From a virus, in IMG/VR virus record IMGVR_UViG_3300030060_007733, positions 1-49,745 of that record: 49,745 bases of DNA, one strand, 5' to 3'. Shown here one piece after another: positions 1,181 through 32,862 of this stretch; the first letter of the stretch is position 1; every line of letters starts with the position of its first letter. Both the position numbers and the translations under genes were made by a program. Below the pieces are notes generated by a model. It ran no database searches and was not told the DNA's origin. It saw only the letters and a list, made by a program, of their open reading frames with translations.

Positions 1181-1204
1181 GTAATTACATTCTACACAAA
1201 AAAA
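1181..1204 (-). promoter_or_regulatory. Candidate late promoter of the holin operon (GTGTAGA motif)
   Basis: The minus strand carries a T-run, then GTGTAGAATG (GTGTAGA at 1197-1191), 10 nt before the holin ATG. TAGAAT could serve as a -10 box, but no -35 is visible. The same GTGTAGA block at 8-10 nt from a start codon occurs before the genes at 3143 and 29369, with variants at 4833 and 44532. It may be a late promoter read by the phage sigma-like factor; this is inference. Confidence 0.35.
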
Positions 1205-1228
1205 GCCACCCGTGCAGGTGGCTTTTTT
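1198..1228 (-). terminator. Rho-independent terminator after the beta-barrel gene
   Basis: The stem GCCACC/GGTGGC (1205-1210 with 1217-1222) encloses a 6-nt loop. On the minus strand it is followed by seven T (complement of 1198-1204). A T-run also follows on the plus strand (1223-1228), so it could act in both directions. It sits 26 bp past the stop of the outer-membrane barrel gene and separates it from the lysis operon. Confidence 0.85.
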
Positions 1229-1253
1229 ATTTTATAATTAAAACTAATTTAAA

Positions 1254-27581: not shown

Positions 27582-28417
27582 TTGAATATGGGTTTAAAAA
27601 TTGAAAAATCATGCTTATCAATTAAGCCTTCTCTCTGATCTAGAACCTCATACCTATACCAGTCGTTTAAAAACTTATCAAAATCAATACACTCCCGCAT
27701 GTCATCGGTTAGATGATTCTTTAAACAATCTTCAACAGATTTTATGTTGAGAGGATCAAACCCTTGATCATAAATTTCTTTTAGAAGTTTTGCTCTGTTT
27801 TCATATCTTTTTTTAATTAGATTGTGATCATTTTCAAAGCCTAAAACAAGGTGATTGCTGTTAGGGAAAAAGTAATATTTAAAATTGTGTTTAATAAAGT
27901 GATATGTATCTTGCCTTCTTTCAGATCTTACATTTTTTTGATACTCTTTCTTCCAAAAAGGATGATTGGATATTTCCGTTGTTTTTGAAACACCCGCGAT
28001 TCCTTCATGTGGGTTATTAACAAAACGAGTCTCTTCATTTAATTTAAATAAAAATCTTTTGTTATAGAGATAAGTTCCATCAATATTTAAATCATCTAAC
28101 TCTGCACATAATTTCTTTAAGTTTTTTGTAAAATCTGGCGAAAGTCTCTCTAGACTGTCTATTGTCAAAAACCAATCACCTATTATTATTGGCCCCTGAA
28201 ACAAACAATGGTTTCTACTGAAATCTAACCTATTGCACCATTTAGTATAGATGATCTCGCCCTCTCCTTTAACACTTTCTAGATAATCTGCGCCATTATC
28301 CTTGGGGTAGTGGAATGTCCAAACCAAGCCGTCAAAGTCATCTTTGATTGGTTCTATAAGTTCACGAAGGTCTTTTTCATGACCTTCATTAGTTACTCCT
28401 ATAAGCCATAATCTCAT
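27578..28417 (-). CDS. Glycosyltransferase-like protein (GT-A related)
   Basis: 279 residues. The start LWLIGVTNEGHEKDLRELIE and the motif IIGDWFLTIDSLERLS (about 76-91) correspond to the strand and metal-binding region of GT2-like enzymes, though DxD has become IDSLE. Later FVNNPHEGIAG and HFIKHNFKYYFFP follow patterns seen in phage GT2-like proteins. It may be a diverged or inactive glycosyltransferase. Confidence 0.6.
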   Translation of the reverse strand: MRLWLIGVTNEGHEKDLRELIEPIKDDFDGLVWTFHYPKDNGADYLESVKGEGEIIYTKWCNRLDFSRNHCLFQGPIIIGDWFLTIDSLERLSPDFTKNLKKLCAELDDLNIDGTYLYNKRFLFKLNEETRFVNNPHEGIAGVSKTTEISNHPFWKKEYQKNVRSERRQDTYHFIKHNFKYYFFPNSNHLVLGFENDHNLIKKRYENRAKLLKEIYDQGFDPLNIKSVEDCLKNHLTDDMRECIDFDKFLNDWYRYEVLDQREGLIDKHDFSIFKPIFK

Positions 28418-29148
28418 CCTATGTGTTCTGAATATATTTTATTAGTATTAAAAAAGGAAAATGGTGTTCTTGAATTTGTTGCGCCTTTTAATAAATCACC
28501 AGACATTAGCTCGCAGTGATAAGAGCCAAGTTTGTCTAAATAGTTTTGAGCAGACTTCCAAGCGATAAAAATCTCTGTAGTTCTGTTTATATTTGGCTGG
28601 AAAGTGAATGTAGGACCATATTTAGTATAGTTAATTGCTTGAGTATATATATTATCATTCTCAACTAAGTGATTGCCCTCAGGCTCTCCGAAGTCTTTAG
28701 ATCCGTTAAATCTTACGCAAAGTTGATTTGGATTATCATCAAGAAACTTTAAGGAATCTTTAAAAACTTCCTCTAAACAAACTTTAGAATTAAATATCCA
28801 GTCGTCTTCCAACCACAGAGAATATTTTTGTTTTCTAATTTCTAGGTCCGAATATGCTGTATAAATATCTTTAAAATATCCTGCCGAGTGAGACAAGTGG
28901 TTCTCAGAGTGATGCACTATATCTTCTTTTGATTCTAGAACCCTAATATCGAGATATGAACAAAATGATTTTATTTCGTATGCTATGTCTTCTTCCCCAT
29001 CTCTTGATTTTAGGTGAAGAAGTTTGTTTGAGAAAATTGACAGGTCTATCTGGCTATGAAGTTTGTTAAGACAATCCTGATAAGTGTGTCTGCCACCATG
29101 ACCCATAGTGGTGCTAAAAACAATAAGATTTAAAGGAAGTGTAGACAT
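28414..29148 (-). CDS. Glycosyltransferase-like protein, first gene of the glycan cassette
   Basis: 244 residues. NLIVFSTTMGHGGRHTYQDC starts the protein, and YSLWLEDDWIFNS (about 108-120) carries an acidic metal-type motif like those of GT-A enzymes. LCVRFNGSKDFG and the C-terminal NTNKIYSEHIG are unassigned. It is the promoter-proximal gene of a 14-gene chain with almost continuous start/stop overlaps. Its ATG lies two bases after a 10-bp stem, so its translation may be regulated. Confidence 0.62.
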   Translation of the reverse strand: MSTLPLNLIVFSTTMGHGGRHTYQDCLNKLHSQIDLSIFSNKLLHLKSRDGEEDIAYEIKSFCSYLDIRVLESKEDIVHHSENHLSHSAGYFKDIYTAYSDLEIRKQKYSLWLEDDWIFNSKVCLEEVFKDSLKFLDDNPNQLCVRFNGSKDFGEPEGNHLVENDNIYTQAINYTKYGPTFTFQPNINRTTEIFIAWKSAQNYLDKLGSYHCELMSGDLLKGATNSRTPFSFFNTNKIYSEHIG

Positions 29149-29214
29149 AAAACCTCTGGGCCTTAGTATCAGACCCAGAGGTTACTATGACCTCAAGGAA
29201 ATAAATCCTCGACC
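29149..29214 (-). promoter_or_regulatory. Structured 5' leader with two exclusive hairpins before the glycan cassette
   Basis: The predicted transcript from the 29.2-kb promoter has a leader of about 66 nt. One hairpin pairs 29190-29194 with 29178-29182 (GAGGT/ACCTC). The other pairs 29174-29183 with 29151-29160 (AACCTCTGGG/CCCAGAGGTT, 10 bp). Both need the same ACCTC segment, so only one can form. The long stem buries AGAGG, the only ribosome-site-like sequence, next to the ATG at 29148. This layout suggests a translational on/off switch or attenuator; the ligand or trigger is unknown. Confidence 0.55.
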
Positions 29215-29406: not shown

Positions 29407-31053
29407 CTAACCCTCACAAGAAGAACAATTTAGTATTGATCTAGCTAATTCTTGACTAGGGTTAGCACTTCTTTGGTAATAAAAACTCTTAACTCCTTGT
29501 TCCCAGCCGAAAATAAGTAATTCGCTAACTTGTTTCGGTGGACATTTAGGAGAAATCATTACGTTTAGGCTTTGACCTTGATCAATGTATTTCTGTCTCT
29601 GAGCAGCCTGTATCACTATCTCTTTTTGGGAAATTTCACCGAAAGTTTTAAATACATCTTTTTCATGTTCTGACAGAAAGTCTAAATGTTGAACAGATCC
29701 TCCTTTTACTAAAATTGACTTCCAAGTAGTCGCATTGTTTTTGCCTTTCTCTTCAAGGAGTTCTTCTAGATGGGGGTTTTTATATGTGAATTTTCCCTTG
29801 GCTAAATCCTTGGTAAAATAATTACTATTTAATGGCTCAATAGATGGAGAAACTTGACCGAGAATAAATGAGCTAGATGTAGTGGGAGCAATCGCCATAG
29901 TGGTCATATTCCGTTTTCCATAGCCGCGAAGATGTTCTGGCTCCCCAAATTCTTCTGCTAATTTTGAAGTAGCTCTGTCGCATCTTTCTCTAATTATATT
30001 ATGTATCTCTGCATTTAAAAACTGAGCCTCCAATCCTTCAAAGGCAATATTCTTAGATTGTAAGAGAGAGTGCCAACCGAGAACCCCAAGACCCAAAGCT
30101 CTTTGTCTTTTTGCAAAGTTATGACAAGACTTCATAAAAGGAATATTTTCTGTTTTGTAGATATATTCCTCCATAACTGCGTCCAGAAACTGAACGAGGG
30201 TTTCAACCGCATCAGTTTCTTTTATTTCGTCCCACCTGAGAAGATTTAAAGAAGACAGGCAACAAACAAAAGATTCGTCCTCTGATGAATGTAGGGCTAT
30301 CTCACTGCAAAGATTAGAAGCGTGGATTTTGAGTTTCTTATCCTTGTATGCTTGTGGAGCATTGTTGTTGGCGTTATCTGTAAAAAATATGTATGGGTAT
30401 CCTGTTTCAAATCTTTTCTTTATTACATTCGCCCAAACCTTTCTTTTATCTTTATCTCCATCTACCATTGATTGCATCCACTTGTCATCAATGCAGACAG
30501 CAAACGACATTTCTTGGATAGGATTTCCTTCACTTCTAATTCTTAAAAATTCCTCAATATCAGGGTGATCTATAGGAAGATATGCTGCGAAAGATCCTCT
30601 TCTTACATGTCCTTGAGAAACAATAGAAGCAACCTTGTCGAATAGTTCCATGAAATAAACTGCGCCAGCAGAAACTCCTCCCACGCTAATTGGAATTCCT
30701 CTTGCTCTTAAATCACCAAAATACCCTGATGTCCCAGAGCCATGTTTTGTTTGCATTCCAACTTCCGCTTGTTTGCGAAGAATAGAATCCATTTTATCGT
30801 CAACATAAACGCCGTTACAAGAAATGGGTAATCCTCTGTCTCTGCCAAAATTAGACCAAACGGGACTAGCGAGAGAATAAAACCCTCTCTTCATATAATC
30901 TTCAAACTTATCCGCAAACCCACTCTGCCTTAAATATTTTTCAGCAGCCTCCGCAATAGCCCTTATTCTTTTTTTAGGACTCTCTCCTTTTTGTAAATAA
31001 CCTCTTTCAAGGAATTGTTTAGAATCTTCGTTTAACCAATAATAGTCTTTCAT
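29407..31053 (-). CDS. nrdA: Ribonucleotide reductase class I, alpha subunit
   Basis: 548 residues. Catalytic residues are visible: first redox Cys79 (ISCNGVYVDD), NLCSEI with Asn247, Cys249 and Glu251, second Cys at 264/265, radical-transfer Tyr pair SFYYQRS (Tyr525-526) and C-terminal CSSC (543, 546). It lacks the N-terminal ATP-cone and is far shorter than E. coli NrdA (about 760), so dATP inhibition is probably absent, as in other phage enzymes. It reduces NDPs to dNDPs for phage replication. Its ATG shares a base with the nrdB stop. Confidence 0.95.
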   Translation of the reverse strand: MKDYYWLNEDSKQFLERGYLQKGESPKKRIRAIAEAAEKYLRQSGFADKFEDYMKRGFYSLASPVWSNFGRDRGLPISCNGVYVDDKMDSILRKQAEVGMQTKHGSGTSGYFGDLRARGIPISVGGVSAGAVYFMELFDKVASIVSQGHVRRGSFAAYLPIDHPDIEEFLRIRSEGNPIQEMSFAVCIDDKWMQSMVDGDKDKRKVWANVIKKRFETGYPYIFFTDNANNNAPQAYKDKKLKIHASNLCSEIALHSSEDESFVCCLSSLNLLRWDEIKETDAVETLVQFLDAVMEEYIYKTENIPFMKSCHNFAKRQRALGLGVLGWHSLLQSKNIAFEGLEAQFLNAEIHNIIRERCDRATSKLAEEFGEPEHLRGYGKRNMTTMAIAPTTSSSFILGQVSPSIEPLNSNYFTKDLAKGKFTYKNPHLEELLEEKGKNNATTWKSILVKGGSVQHLDFLSEHEKDVFKTFGEISQKEIVIQAAQRQKYIDQGQSLNVMISPKCPPKQVSELLIFGWEQGVKSFYYQRSANPSQELARSILNCSSCEG

Positions 31054-32024
31054 TAAAATAAATCGTCAGCGTCAAATGTTTGAGAGTTTTTTGCATATTC
31101 TACAGGCCGCGTATGAAAAAAATCAGTAGCATTATTCCCGAGCAACTCTTCTTCAAACCAGATTGTATTCACTAATAGCTCCTTGTCAACGTCAAACGCC
31201 TTCCTAAAGCCAATTTGTTCTAATGATTCGTTAATTCTATTCTTAATAAATTCTTTTAAAATCGGTGCGCTTATGCCTTTCTCATTATAACCATTGATCA
31301 TCCAGTCTACAATTTGAGATTCTGCCTTAAAAGCGGCTTGTGATTCTTCTAAAATCTTCTCTTCAAGACCATCATCAAAAAGCTCTGGATGTTCTTCTCT
31401 AATTGTGTTGATTATCTTAATTCCAGCTAAAGCATGAATATTTTCTTCGTTCCTTGTATATTTTACCTGCTGACCAGTATCCTTTAGGACATTCTTGTAG
31501 CGATTAAACCAATTAATTACATAAAACTGGCTAAACAGTGAAACATTCTCTACAAAAAGTGTAAATAAAATAAGAGCATAAACATATTGCTTTTTAGAGT
31601 CTTTATAAAATCTGTGAGTGTATTTCCTCAGATAATTTACCCTACCCTCAATAAAATCGAGCTTAAGGTTCTGCTCAAAAATATCCTCCAATCCTAATAC
31701 TTTCAGTAATCTCTCATAAGCGTTATTGTGGATAACTTCCACATTAGCCATAACATACCCTAAATCAGTCAAACTGGGGTGAGGCAGATTGTCTCCTAGC
31801 TTGCTCCAAAATTTCTTTACCGCAACTTCAATTTGCCCAATAGCAGAGAGAGTCCTGATGATCATCTCTCTTTCTGTATCATTTAAATTTACGCTAAAAT
31901 CTTGCACATCACTGGTAAAACTAAATTCTTTATCTGTCCAAAAGCCGTTATGCATGGCCTCAATAAATTCTTCTGCCCAAGGGTAGTGATCTGGCTTTCT
32001 GGATATTTGTTCTTCAAAAATCAT
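31053..32024 (-). CDS. nrdB: Ribonucleotide reductase class I, beta subunit
   Basis: 323 residues. Ferritin-like helices with metal ligands: Glu66 (IEVAVKKFW), Glu96 and His99 in VEVIHNNAY, ENVSLFSQF in the second half, and RNEENIHALAG (Glu and His). Tyr103, four residues after His99, is in the radical-tyrosine position (E-x2-H-x3-Y). It houses the di-iron/tyrosyl cofactor for NrdA. First gene of the nrd unit with its own promoter and a leader of about 9 nt. Upstream lies a separate RNA unit with terminator. Confidence 0.93.
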   Translation of the reverse strand: MIFEEQISRKPDHYPWAEEFIEAMHNGFWTDKEFSFTSDVQDFSVNLNDTEREMIIRTLSAIGQIEVAVKKFWSKLGDNLPHPSLTDLGYVMANVEVIHNNAYERLLKVLGLEDIFEQNLKLDFIEGRVNYLRKYTHRFYKDSKKQYVYALILFTLFVENVSLFSQFYVINWFNRYKNVLKDTGQQVKYTRNEENIHALAGIKIINTIREEHPELFDDGLEEKILEESQAAFKAESQIVDWMINGYNEKGISAPILKEFIKNRINESLEQIGFRKAFDVDKELLVNTIWFEEELLGNNATDFFHTRPVEYAKNSQTFDADDLF

Positions 32025-32039
32025 TTCGTAAAGTTACAC

Positions 32040-32068
32040 ATGTTAGGGGGCGCTAAGAAACCCGTCAA
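32040..32068 (-). promoter_or_regulatory. Promoter of nrdB-nrdA
   Basis: Minus strand: TTGACG (32068-32063), 17-bp spacer, TAACAT (32045-32040, 4/6 match). Expected start near 32033 gives a very short leader before the ATG at 32024. It begins 13 bp after the terminator of the upstream RNA unit. Confidence 0.55.
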
Positions 32069-32080
32069 TCGCTTTTTCTC

Positions 32081-32100
32081 AAAAAAATGCCGAAGGCATT
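32081..32100 (-). terminator. Terminator of the small RNA unit upstream of nrdB
   Basis: Minus strand: 6-bp stem AATGCC/GGCATT with a TTC loop (32100-32086), then T-run (complement of 32081-32086). No protein gene on the minus strand ends here, so it must serve the RNA unit or attenuate nrdB transcription. Confidence 0.7.
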
Positions 32101-32180
32101 AAATTAATATGAACGGATGGGTAACGTATGGAATATTATTTTAATACGCATCCGTTACGCTCGTATTCAATACGCTCAAT
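32081..32180 (-). ncRNA. Candidate structured small RNA, about 100 nt
   Basis: Bounded on the minus strand by a strong promoter (start near 32180) and a Rho-independent terminator (ends near 32081). No ORF of note lies inside. Predicted elements in order: hairpin CGTAT-TGA-ATACG; a long stem AACGGATG/CATCCGTT whose interior pairs CGTAT/ATACG around an A/T-rich loop; then the terminator hairpin. The base-paired arms are specific and GC-containing in an otherwise AT-rich region, which favours a functional RNA. It may be a free small RNA or, by readthrough, a leader of nrdB. I do not recognise a known riboswitch or sRNA class. Confidence 0.6.
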
Positions 32181-32186
32181 AACTAG

Positions 32187-32214
32187 ATTCTAGACTGTTT
32201 TTTTTGGCTGTCAA
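32187..32214 (-). promoter_or_regulatory. Strong promoter of the small RNA unit
   Basis: Minus strand: TTGACA (32214-32209), a perfect -35, 16-bp spacer, TAGAAT (32192-32187). Start expected near 32180. No protein start lies within 150 bp downstream. Confidence 0.7.
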
Positions 32215-32227
32215 GAAAAAAATAAAA

Positions 32228-32265
32228 TGGATATTTTCCTTTAAACAACGTATAGTATAGCACAA
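32228..32265 (+). promoter_or_regulatory. Possible promoter of the sigma-like gene
   Basis: TATAGT at 32251-32256 lies 9 nt before the TTG start at 32266, again giving a nearly leaderless transcript. The -35 region (around 32228) matches poorly. Uncertain. Confidence 0.35.
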
Positions 32266-32862
32266 TTGATTGAAGATTTAACAGACTGCGCTCTTACCGA
32301 TTTAATCAAAAGAGAGAATAATGAGGATGCCTTAAATGAGTTGATTTTAAGACATTCTGGTATATATGTCGATATGCTCAAAAAATTTGGATTCAAATGT
32401 TTGACAAACAATCAAGTTCAAGACATCATGAGCGAAAAGGACTATGTTATATACAAAGCGGCTCTTGAATACGATGAAAATAAAGCTAAATTTTCCACCC
32501 ATTTAGCCAATAAAGCCAAATACCTTTGTTTAACACAAAAAACTAAAAACAAGAATAATAAAATATCTTCAAATTTTGAAGATGTTCAGTTTTCTCAGAA
32601 AGACAAGGGGTCCACCCCAGCAGAATCTTGTGATTTAAATGATTCTTTTGCTAGAATATTAAACTTGATTAGCAAACACAAGGATAAGAGGCTTCAGACT
32701 ATATTCCACGAAAGATACTTTTGTGGCAGAAGAGGAAAACTACAGCCTTGGAAAGAAGTAGCTAAAAAATTAAATCTTTCTGCTCAAGGCTGTATAAATA
32801 TACACGATAAAGCCGTAAAAGAATTAAATTACAAGATCAATAATGAGACGATTAAATTTTGA
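32266..32862 (+). CDS. Phage sigma-70-family-like transcription factor
   Basis: 198 residues. The N-terminal part has sigma region 2 traits: DALNELILRHSGIYVDMLKKF (core-binding helix) and AALEYDENKAKFSTHLANKAKYL (region 2.3/2.4-like). A linker with polar residues follows. The C-terminal part (about 135-190) has a region 4-type helix-turn-helix: LQTIFHERYF, then PWKEVAKKLNLSAQG and INIHDKAVKELN. I infer a phage sigma that redirects RNA polymerase to late promoters, comparable to T4 gp55 in role. Its start appears to be TTG at 32266. It overlaps the next gene by 20 bp. Confidence 0.7.
   Translation: MIEDLTDCALTDLIKRENNEDALNELILRHSGIYVDMLKKFGFKCLTNNQVQDIMSEKDYVIYKAALEYDENKAKFSTHLANKAKYLCLTQKTKNKNNKISSNFEDVQFSQKDKGSTPAESCDLNDSFARILNLISKHKDKRLQTIFHERYFCGRRGKLQPWKEVAKKLNLSAQGCINIHDKAVKELNYKINNETIKF

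Follow-up and report, generated by a model that had tools for sequence, protein, structure and literature searches.

Organization of the nrdB-Upstream Locus

The window, which is the whole stretch of 49,745 nucleotides analyzed, carries nrdB on its minus strand (31053-32024), encoding the small subunit of a class I ribonucleotide reductase (PF00268, E 1.2e-46), and a divergent gene for a phage sigma-like factor of 198 amino acids on its plus strand (32266-32862; PHROG, TIGR02937, and an AlphaFold2 model). Between the two genes, and reading toward nrdB, lies an element composed of a promoter, a predicted noncoding RNA of ~100 nt, and a terminator-like end. The -35 element TTGACA (32209-32214, minus strand) and the -10 element TAGAAT (32187-32192, minus strand) are read in the sequence itself with a 16-nt spacer between them, as described in an earlier reading made from the sequence only, and match the consensus at 11 of 12 positions. 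The RNA is predicted to occupy 32079-32180 of the minus strand, its start being placed from the -10 element to within 3 nt on either side, and its 3' end is formed by AATGCCTTCGGCATT followed by a T-run. This is the terminator-like hairpin AATGCC-TTC-GGCATT with its T-run detected by pattern scan (32079-32100, minus strand, with the hairpin at 32100-32086), and with 6 pairs, 3 of them G-C, it is of moderate strength, so that the terminator of the sequence-only reading is present but had been overrated as strong. The promoter region of nrdB (32034-32068, minus strand) was located by promoter scan and comprises TTGACG, 17 nt, and TAACAT, followed by GTGTAA at 32034-32039. Its -35 element begins at 32068, 13 nt past the end of the element as first delimited (32081), in agreement with the separate nrdB promoter proposed before. 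For the sigma-like gene a weak promoter-like site (TGGATA, 17 nt, TATAGT; 32228-32256, plus strand) may serve, placed 9 nt before the TTG start. The GC skew, judged by eye, tracks gene direction with no additional shift at the element.

The 5' half of the predicted RNA contains two tandem 15-nt repeat units, AGCGTATTGAATACG and AGCGTAACGGATGCG (32147-32176, minus strand; repeat family D1), which are 73% alike, and a pattern search finds these units once more in inverted form at 32113-32131 (CCATACGTTACCCATCCGT as read on the minus strand). The tandem unit pattern has no second match within the 49,745-nt window, the inverted-copy pattern has one match in the window compared with none in 100 shuffles, and no second copy of the element as a whole was found in the window. 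Two stems can be drawn on the minus strand. Stem a/a' (32112-32156) has arms at 32145-32156 and 32112-32123 that are complementary at 11 of 12 positions (pair I4, present in the minimum free energy (MFE) fold), and stem b/b' (32098-32145) has AT-only arms at 32133-32145 and 32098-32110 that are complementary at 12 of 13 positions (pair I2), with a counterpart that covaries among relatives. The two stems cross and are thus mutually exclusive or form a pseudoknot.

Taken alone, the window element stands barely beyond chance. The RNA folds with a z-score of -1.61, equaled by 15 of 200 shuffles, or of -2.23 when other ends are chosen, so the folding check proposed with the sequence-only reading returns an energy barely distinguishable from that of shuffled sequence. 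The 7 kb around the element hold 27 promoter-like sites compared with 22.5 expected and 7 terminator-like sites compared with 4.9 expected. It is conservation in relatives, namely of the 16-nt spacer and of the 3' hairpin with T-run, that raises the element above chance, and it becomes convincing because the relatives carry comparable units. With Rfam release 15 no match at gathering scores is obtained in the window or in nine related loci, and the three matches near the element at E values up to 10 (E 1-7) all lie far below the cut-offs, which accords with the earlier statement that no known RNA family could be recognized.

Two Orientations of the Unit among Relatives

Relatives were gathered from viral contigs by NrdB and hairpin-pattern searches, taking the best 80 loci per NrdB search. 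The resulting 195 locus entries, many of them from the same contigs and with the window included twice, reduce to 89 distinct 240-nt regions upstream of nrdB. Among the matches listed, a homologue of the divergent sigma-like gene is on the opposite strand in 89 of 89 regions, a unit reading toward nrdB (termed type A) is present in 28, window included, and a unit with a near-consensus promoter reading away from nrdB (termed type B) in 59. Two regions (L055 and L076) fit neither scan and are unassigned, although labeled B in the trees. Type A was recognized in 25 regions by a pattern in the 3' arm and in three (L010, L011, and L110) by eye with ends set by motifs, and the RNAs as cut in this analysis measure 87-155 nt. 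The type A promoter is TTGAC[AGT] with a 16-nt spacer in 23 of 25 regions, window included. In type B, TTGACA occurs in 56 of 59 regions, the 16-nt spacer in 54, and TATAAT in 49, figures that are partly by choice, since for each region the scan keeps its best site.

The type B motif TATAATNACCGTGAAACGG is found in 24 stretches of viral contigs, one of which (L019) came from an NrdB search, and nrdB adjoins it in all 24. The type A hairpin pattern is found in 16 viral-contig stretches, 15 with nrdB and one (L083) without. In the latter stretch, from a contig of 104.9 kb and with neither nrdB nor a sigma gene, a hairpin with nearly the type A loop (TTCACTACGTTC) is seen at L083:1513-1539, and L256 and L258 have similar hairpins upstream of their sigma gene. 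In Sinorhizobium phage Phosso and Agrobacterium phage Atu_ph07, nrdB has other neighbors and no such unit was seen by eye. A scan of genome contigs gave only two matches to the hairpin pattern (L198 and L199), both with nrdB and the sigma gene and both in Flavobacteria metagenome-assembled genomes (MAGs), which is either a clue to the host or a binning error. Promoters of the E. coli type argue against a Flavobacteria host, which is accordingly doubted.

A small open reading frame was considered as the content of the RNAs and rejected. The longest closed frames measure 0-23 codons and no ORF is widely common to the RNAs; the longest in the window RNA, of 15 codons, is common among the 27 other type A RNAs only to L009 and, shortened to 13 codons, to L001. 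The ~100 nt said to be devoid of protein are upheld as such.

Structure, Covariation, and Repeats

Type A has an AT-rich 3' stem, which was compared in a short-loop set of 15 loci (14 of the 28 type A regions and L199) with the loop sequence TC[AT]CTNCGTTC. Pairs 1 and 3 to 11 are kept in all 15 loci, and pair 2 is A-C in 5 of 15. At pairs 9-13 both sides change while pairing is kept in 15, 15, 15, 14, and 12 of the 15, respectively, and pair 1 also changes on both sides; the inner pairs 1-8 are partly fixed by the patterns used to select the loci, and the outer pairs are free. In type B the conserved feature is a hairpin at +1, present in 55 of 59 regions compared with 6.6 expected, with compensating stems ACCGT/ACGGT, ATCGT/ACGAT, and AGCG/CGCT. 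The covariation sought upstream of nrdB as a check on the sequence-only reading is thus seen in the outer type A stem pairs and in the type B +1 hairpin. The 5' hairpin is unconserved in type A (6 of 28, 3.9 expected), and beyond the 5' hairpin no common fold of type B was found in 40 of the 59 rows.

The two types differ at the 3' end. A loose rule, asking for 4 or more pairs and a T-run close to the 3' end, picks out 23 of 28 type A RNAs compared with 3.4 in shuffles, an excess that is partly by choice as the ends were set at the T-run where present; the T-run is absent in 4 of 28. A 3' hairpin with T-run and at least 3 G-C pairs is found in 15 of 28 (0.9 expected), and 11 of 28 pass the strict terminator rule (1.45 expected). 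In type B the strict rule gives 0 of 59 (1.3 expected) and the loosest rule 5 of 59 (3.4 expected), so the predicted type B RNA may run into the sigma gene. A sigma-70-type promoter of its own, as expected of a small RNA gene, is found in the window and in both types, and an intrinsic terminator in the window and type A and not in type B.

Both types carry short repeats with ACG or CGT cores. Four CG cores are present in 42 of 45 arrays of subtype B1 (45 of the 59 type B regions were examined), with spacings of 17-19 nt in 106 of 136 cases, and in three type A loci tested the repeats recur at 15, 26-27, and 33 nt; the spacing expected of iterons is thus regular in type B and irregular in these type A loci. 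The density of ACG or CGT is 0.073 per nt in the transcribed stretch of type A compared with 0.020 and 0.021 beside it, and in type B 0.109 compared with 0.017 and 0.003. The cores are confined to the transcribed stretch.

Folding energy gives no strand preference in either type. In type A the mean z is -3.2 for the RNA strand and -3.7 for its antisense (n = 25), so the RNA strand has no advantage, and type B folds weakly (mean z -1.8, n = 60, the misassigned L011 included). The type B list used for the scan likewise still included L011, and seven rows were omitted from the type B alignment. Among single mismatches within stems, G-U outnumbers A-C by 25 to 11 distinct contexts at flank 3, where shuffles are about even, and by 13 to 3 at flank 4, where shuffles lean likewise (21 to 7). 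The G-U excess may be a weak indication in favor of RNA.

The Sigma-like Gene and Co-inheritance with the Unit

The window sigma-like protein matches phrog_36 (E 2e-8) and phrog_351 (E 6e-4), and the PHROG matches are transcription regulators. TIGR02937 matches the window protein at E 2.5e-5, under the curated cut-off, and 26 of 32 family members; Pfam gives no match for the window protein. The AlphaFold2 model (pLDDT 82, pTM 0.49) matches sigma factors with best E values of 9e-4 in the PDB and 2e-4 in viral libraries, at TM-scores below 0.5. The divergent 198-amino acid protein is very probably a sigma factor.

In the sigma tree (85 rows, L012, L017, L045, and L085 being absent) the RNA types A and B form one split, which requires 1 change and has a starred support of 100. 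The NrdB tree (88 rows, L089 being absent) requires 4 changes of RNA type, and forcing type A into one clade is rejected (p-AU 1.7e-5). Four changes are still needed without L055 and L076, and 2 when L094 and L072 are also removed; without L055 and L076 the starred branches force at least 2 changes. L062 was omitted from the protein alignment owing to a stop in frame. One change on the sigma tree compared with four on the NrdB tree indicates that the RNA type is inherited together with the sigma gene.

Comparable units also occur at sigma loci away from nrdB. A sigma-family profile search, taking the best 80 matches, gave 79 loci and the 39 most distant were looked at, two of which have nrdB in the flanks examined (up to 3 kb a side). 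A spacer-16 promoter match lies upstream in 12 of the 39. One of these (L291) was dropped as the promoter site is in coding sequence, leaving 11 loci, about seven of them distinct, which carry a comparable unit with no nrdB within up to 3 kb a side and are termed type C; the promoter scan leaves 28 of the 39 without such a unit. A hairpin at or near +1 is present in 11 of 11 predicted folds, and 7 of the 11 loci satisfy a strict hairpin rule where 0.9 would be expected. Repeats were tested in three of the loci, where units such as TCTTACGGAGACC recur at 18 nt or in pairs of 34 nt. By eye, at least five T's in a row come after the unit in 7 of 11, and after the T-run comes the sigma gene's own promoter (e.g. 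L301). The case for a common origin of the three types is made by where the units lie and how they are arranged, and not by any alignable sequence; the trees cover types A and B, and type C is not on one tree with them.

A Candidate Promoter Element, GTGTA[AG]

The GTGTAA of the nrdB promoter region belongs to a wider pattern. Of the 89 regions, 84 have GTGTA[AG] within 40 nt upstream of nrdB. Across the window and two related contigs (G001 and G003; loci L302-L312) it lies at most 50 nt before 27 of 232 ORF starts, compared with 6 in an antisense control and ~4 expected, counts that are not independent as the starts were called mechanically and many are of orthologues. In 19 of 30 occurrences it is placed 14-18 nt upstream of the start. 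GTGTA[AG] is read here as a candidate element by which the phage sigma factor would recognize its promoters.

Terminator-like hairpins are in places followed directly by GTGTA[AG], for example GGGTGGCTTTTTTTGTGTAG (window 1181-1253, minus strand; also in contigs G001 and G003), as if one unit ended where the next sigma-dependent one begins. Elsewhere in the window a 13-pair hairpin (29151-29183, minus strand) lies directly before the start of ORF 28414-29148, with a promoter-like site, TTGACA-17-TACAAT, upstream of it at 29249-29221 (minus strand); the hairpin recurs in both related contigs and is possibly another structured leader. By eye, few window genes appear to be preceded by a Shine-Dalgarno sequence and several of the promoter-like sites are very close to start codons, so leaderless mRNAs are likely.

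Discussion

The arrangement described here suggests, with a probability of roughly 0.45, an independent noncoding RNA gene that forms a cassette together with the divergent gene of a phage sigma factor, and the element would then be a phage small RNA of a new predicted family. The independent RNA of the sequence-only reading is supported by its own promoter, its terminator-like end, the covarying pairs, the lack of a widely common small ORF, and the units that read the opposite way or have no nrdB in the flanks examined. Its other proposal, an attenuator of ribonucleotide reductase, is not supported, and the sigma-like gene as the likelier partner went unnamed in it. Such a cis attenuator or riboswitch of nrdB would account for the position of the unit before nrdB in type A and for a pair of window stems that exclude each other, one of which reaches the terminator. 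It is largely refuted, and is very improbable, because the unit reads away from nrdB in 59 of 89 regions, occurs at the 11 type C sigma loci without nrdB in the flanks examined, follows the sigma gene rather than NrdB in type, and is succeeded after the terminator by a promoter-like site belonging to nrdB itself. The RNA probably belongs to the phage takeover programme rather than to nrdB, as the relatives keep it beside a phage sigma gene.

The main rival is a role at the level of DNA, in which a DNA-binding protein, such as the neighboring sigma-like regulator, would use the repeats as operators or iterons, or the repeats would be part of a replication origin. The four cores ~18 nt apart that adjoin an AT-rich stretch in type B are what such an element would show, the units are partly palindromic, both strands fold equally, the element has a single place in the window, and linkage to a regulator gene would fit operators too. 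This reading is nevertheless rather unlikely given the confinement of the cores to the transcribed stretch, the compensating changes in the type B +1 hairpin, the terminator-like end of type A, and a unit spacing that is mostly 17-19 nt in B but 15, 26-27, and 33 nt in the three A loci tested, with the in-stem mismatches at flank 3 (G-U 25, A-C 11) adding weakly on the side of RNA. A small RNA that base pairs with phage or host mRNA to control it would have the size, promoter, and terminator seen here, and the repeated units could be repeated seeds. It is less likely again, since a search of the 48 ORF starts of the window, covering the phage side only, has no start region that stands out (best z -2.25; nrdB start -0.44, sigma-like gene start -1.42) and the sequence changes fast between relatives. 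The RNA could also be a partner of the sigma factor that binds or titrates sigma or the holoenzyme, as an RNA anti-sigma or in the manner of 6S RNA. The RNA type tracks the sigma gene, where NrdB needs at least 2 forced changes, and similar units adjoin distant sigma genes whose examined flanks lack nrdB; however, GTGTA[AG] is present in 0 of 28 type A, 0 of 59 type B (first 100 nt), and 0 of 12 type C rows (first 120 nt, L291 included), which excludes simple mimicry of the candidate phage-sigma motif, there is no Rfam 6S match, and 28 of the 39 distant sigma loci gave no unit, making this partnership improbable.

Several known systems resemble the cassette in part. RNAs of the CsrB/RsmZ sponge type are short and carry several repeated motifs, a description that fits the present RNAs as well, but the window RNA has a single GGA, and 20 of 59 type B RNAs have none. 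A CsrA sponge was rejected, as no A(N)GGA motif is present in 11 of the 28 RNAs of type A or in 37 of the 59 of type B. 6S RNA is likewise tied to sigma-factor function, but no Rfam match at gathering scores and no common long bulged hairpin were seen here. In the lambda replication origin a promoter is combined with an AT-rich stretch and four ~18-bp repeats, and type B also has four such repeats by an AT-rich stretch; the repeats here directly follow a consensus promoter with a hairpin at +1, and type A differs further in its terminator-like end and other spacings. The nearest published parallel met is the pseudo-ToxI RNA of phage PhiTE, a phage noncoding RNA that evolves by repeat expansion (PMC3475682), and the likeness lies in a tandem-repeat phage noncoding RNA whose copy number changes. 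The ToxIN locus consists of repeats, then a terminator, then a gene, and its units are 36-nt pseudoknots matching the host antitoxin (PMC3475682). The units described here, likened to ToxI by description only, instead recur at intervals of 15-33 nt in those loci that were tested, and their place is between a sigma gene and nrdB. A search of mostly open-access literature did not turn up any account of an RNA located between nrdB and a phage sigma gene, and phage-derived small RNAs are described as an emerging and underexplored class (PMC12197685).

For the RNA gene in a cassette with the sigma factor the following course can be proposed. Host RNA polymerase would make the RNA early, together with the sigma factor, a timing suggested by the sigma-70-type promoters, and the type A terminator would keep early transcription out of nrdB, which has a GTGTAA-type element. 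The repeated units may act as docking sites for a host or phage protein or RNA. With its repetition, fast-changing sequence, and free direction, the element fits a multi-site RNA acting in trans better than a cis leader, and a sponge of this kind is tentatively proposed as the mode of action, somewhat less securely than the cassette itself. That the RNA regulates its cassette sigma factor or the holoenzyme, timing the early-to-late switch as an RNA equivalent of an anti-sigma factor, and keeps its function when its direction flips, is a speculative extension and unlikely as it stands.

A predicted RNA family without an Rfam match thus appears to stay by a phage sigma factor across many marine phages, and the pairing persists despite an nrdB of another lineage and a flipped direction of transcription. 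If true, a tandem-unit RNA as the partner of sigma in a cassette would be a new RNA family in marine phages. The analysis also yields GTGTAA as a candidate promoter element for the phage sigma factor, and it raises the hypothesis that some phages may tune their transcription programme, or an early host function, by a sigma-coupled repeat-unit RNA.
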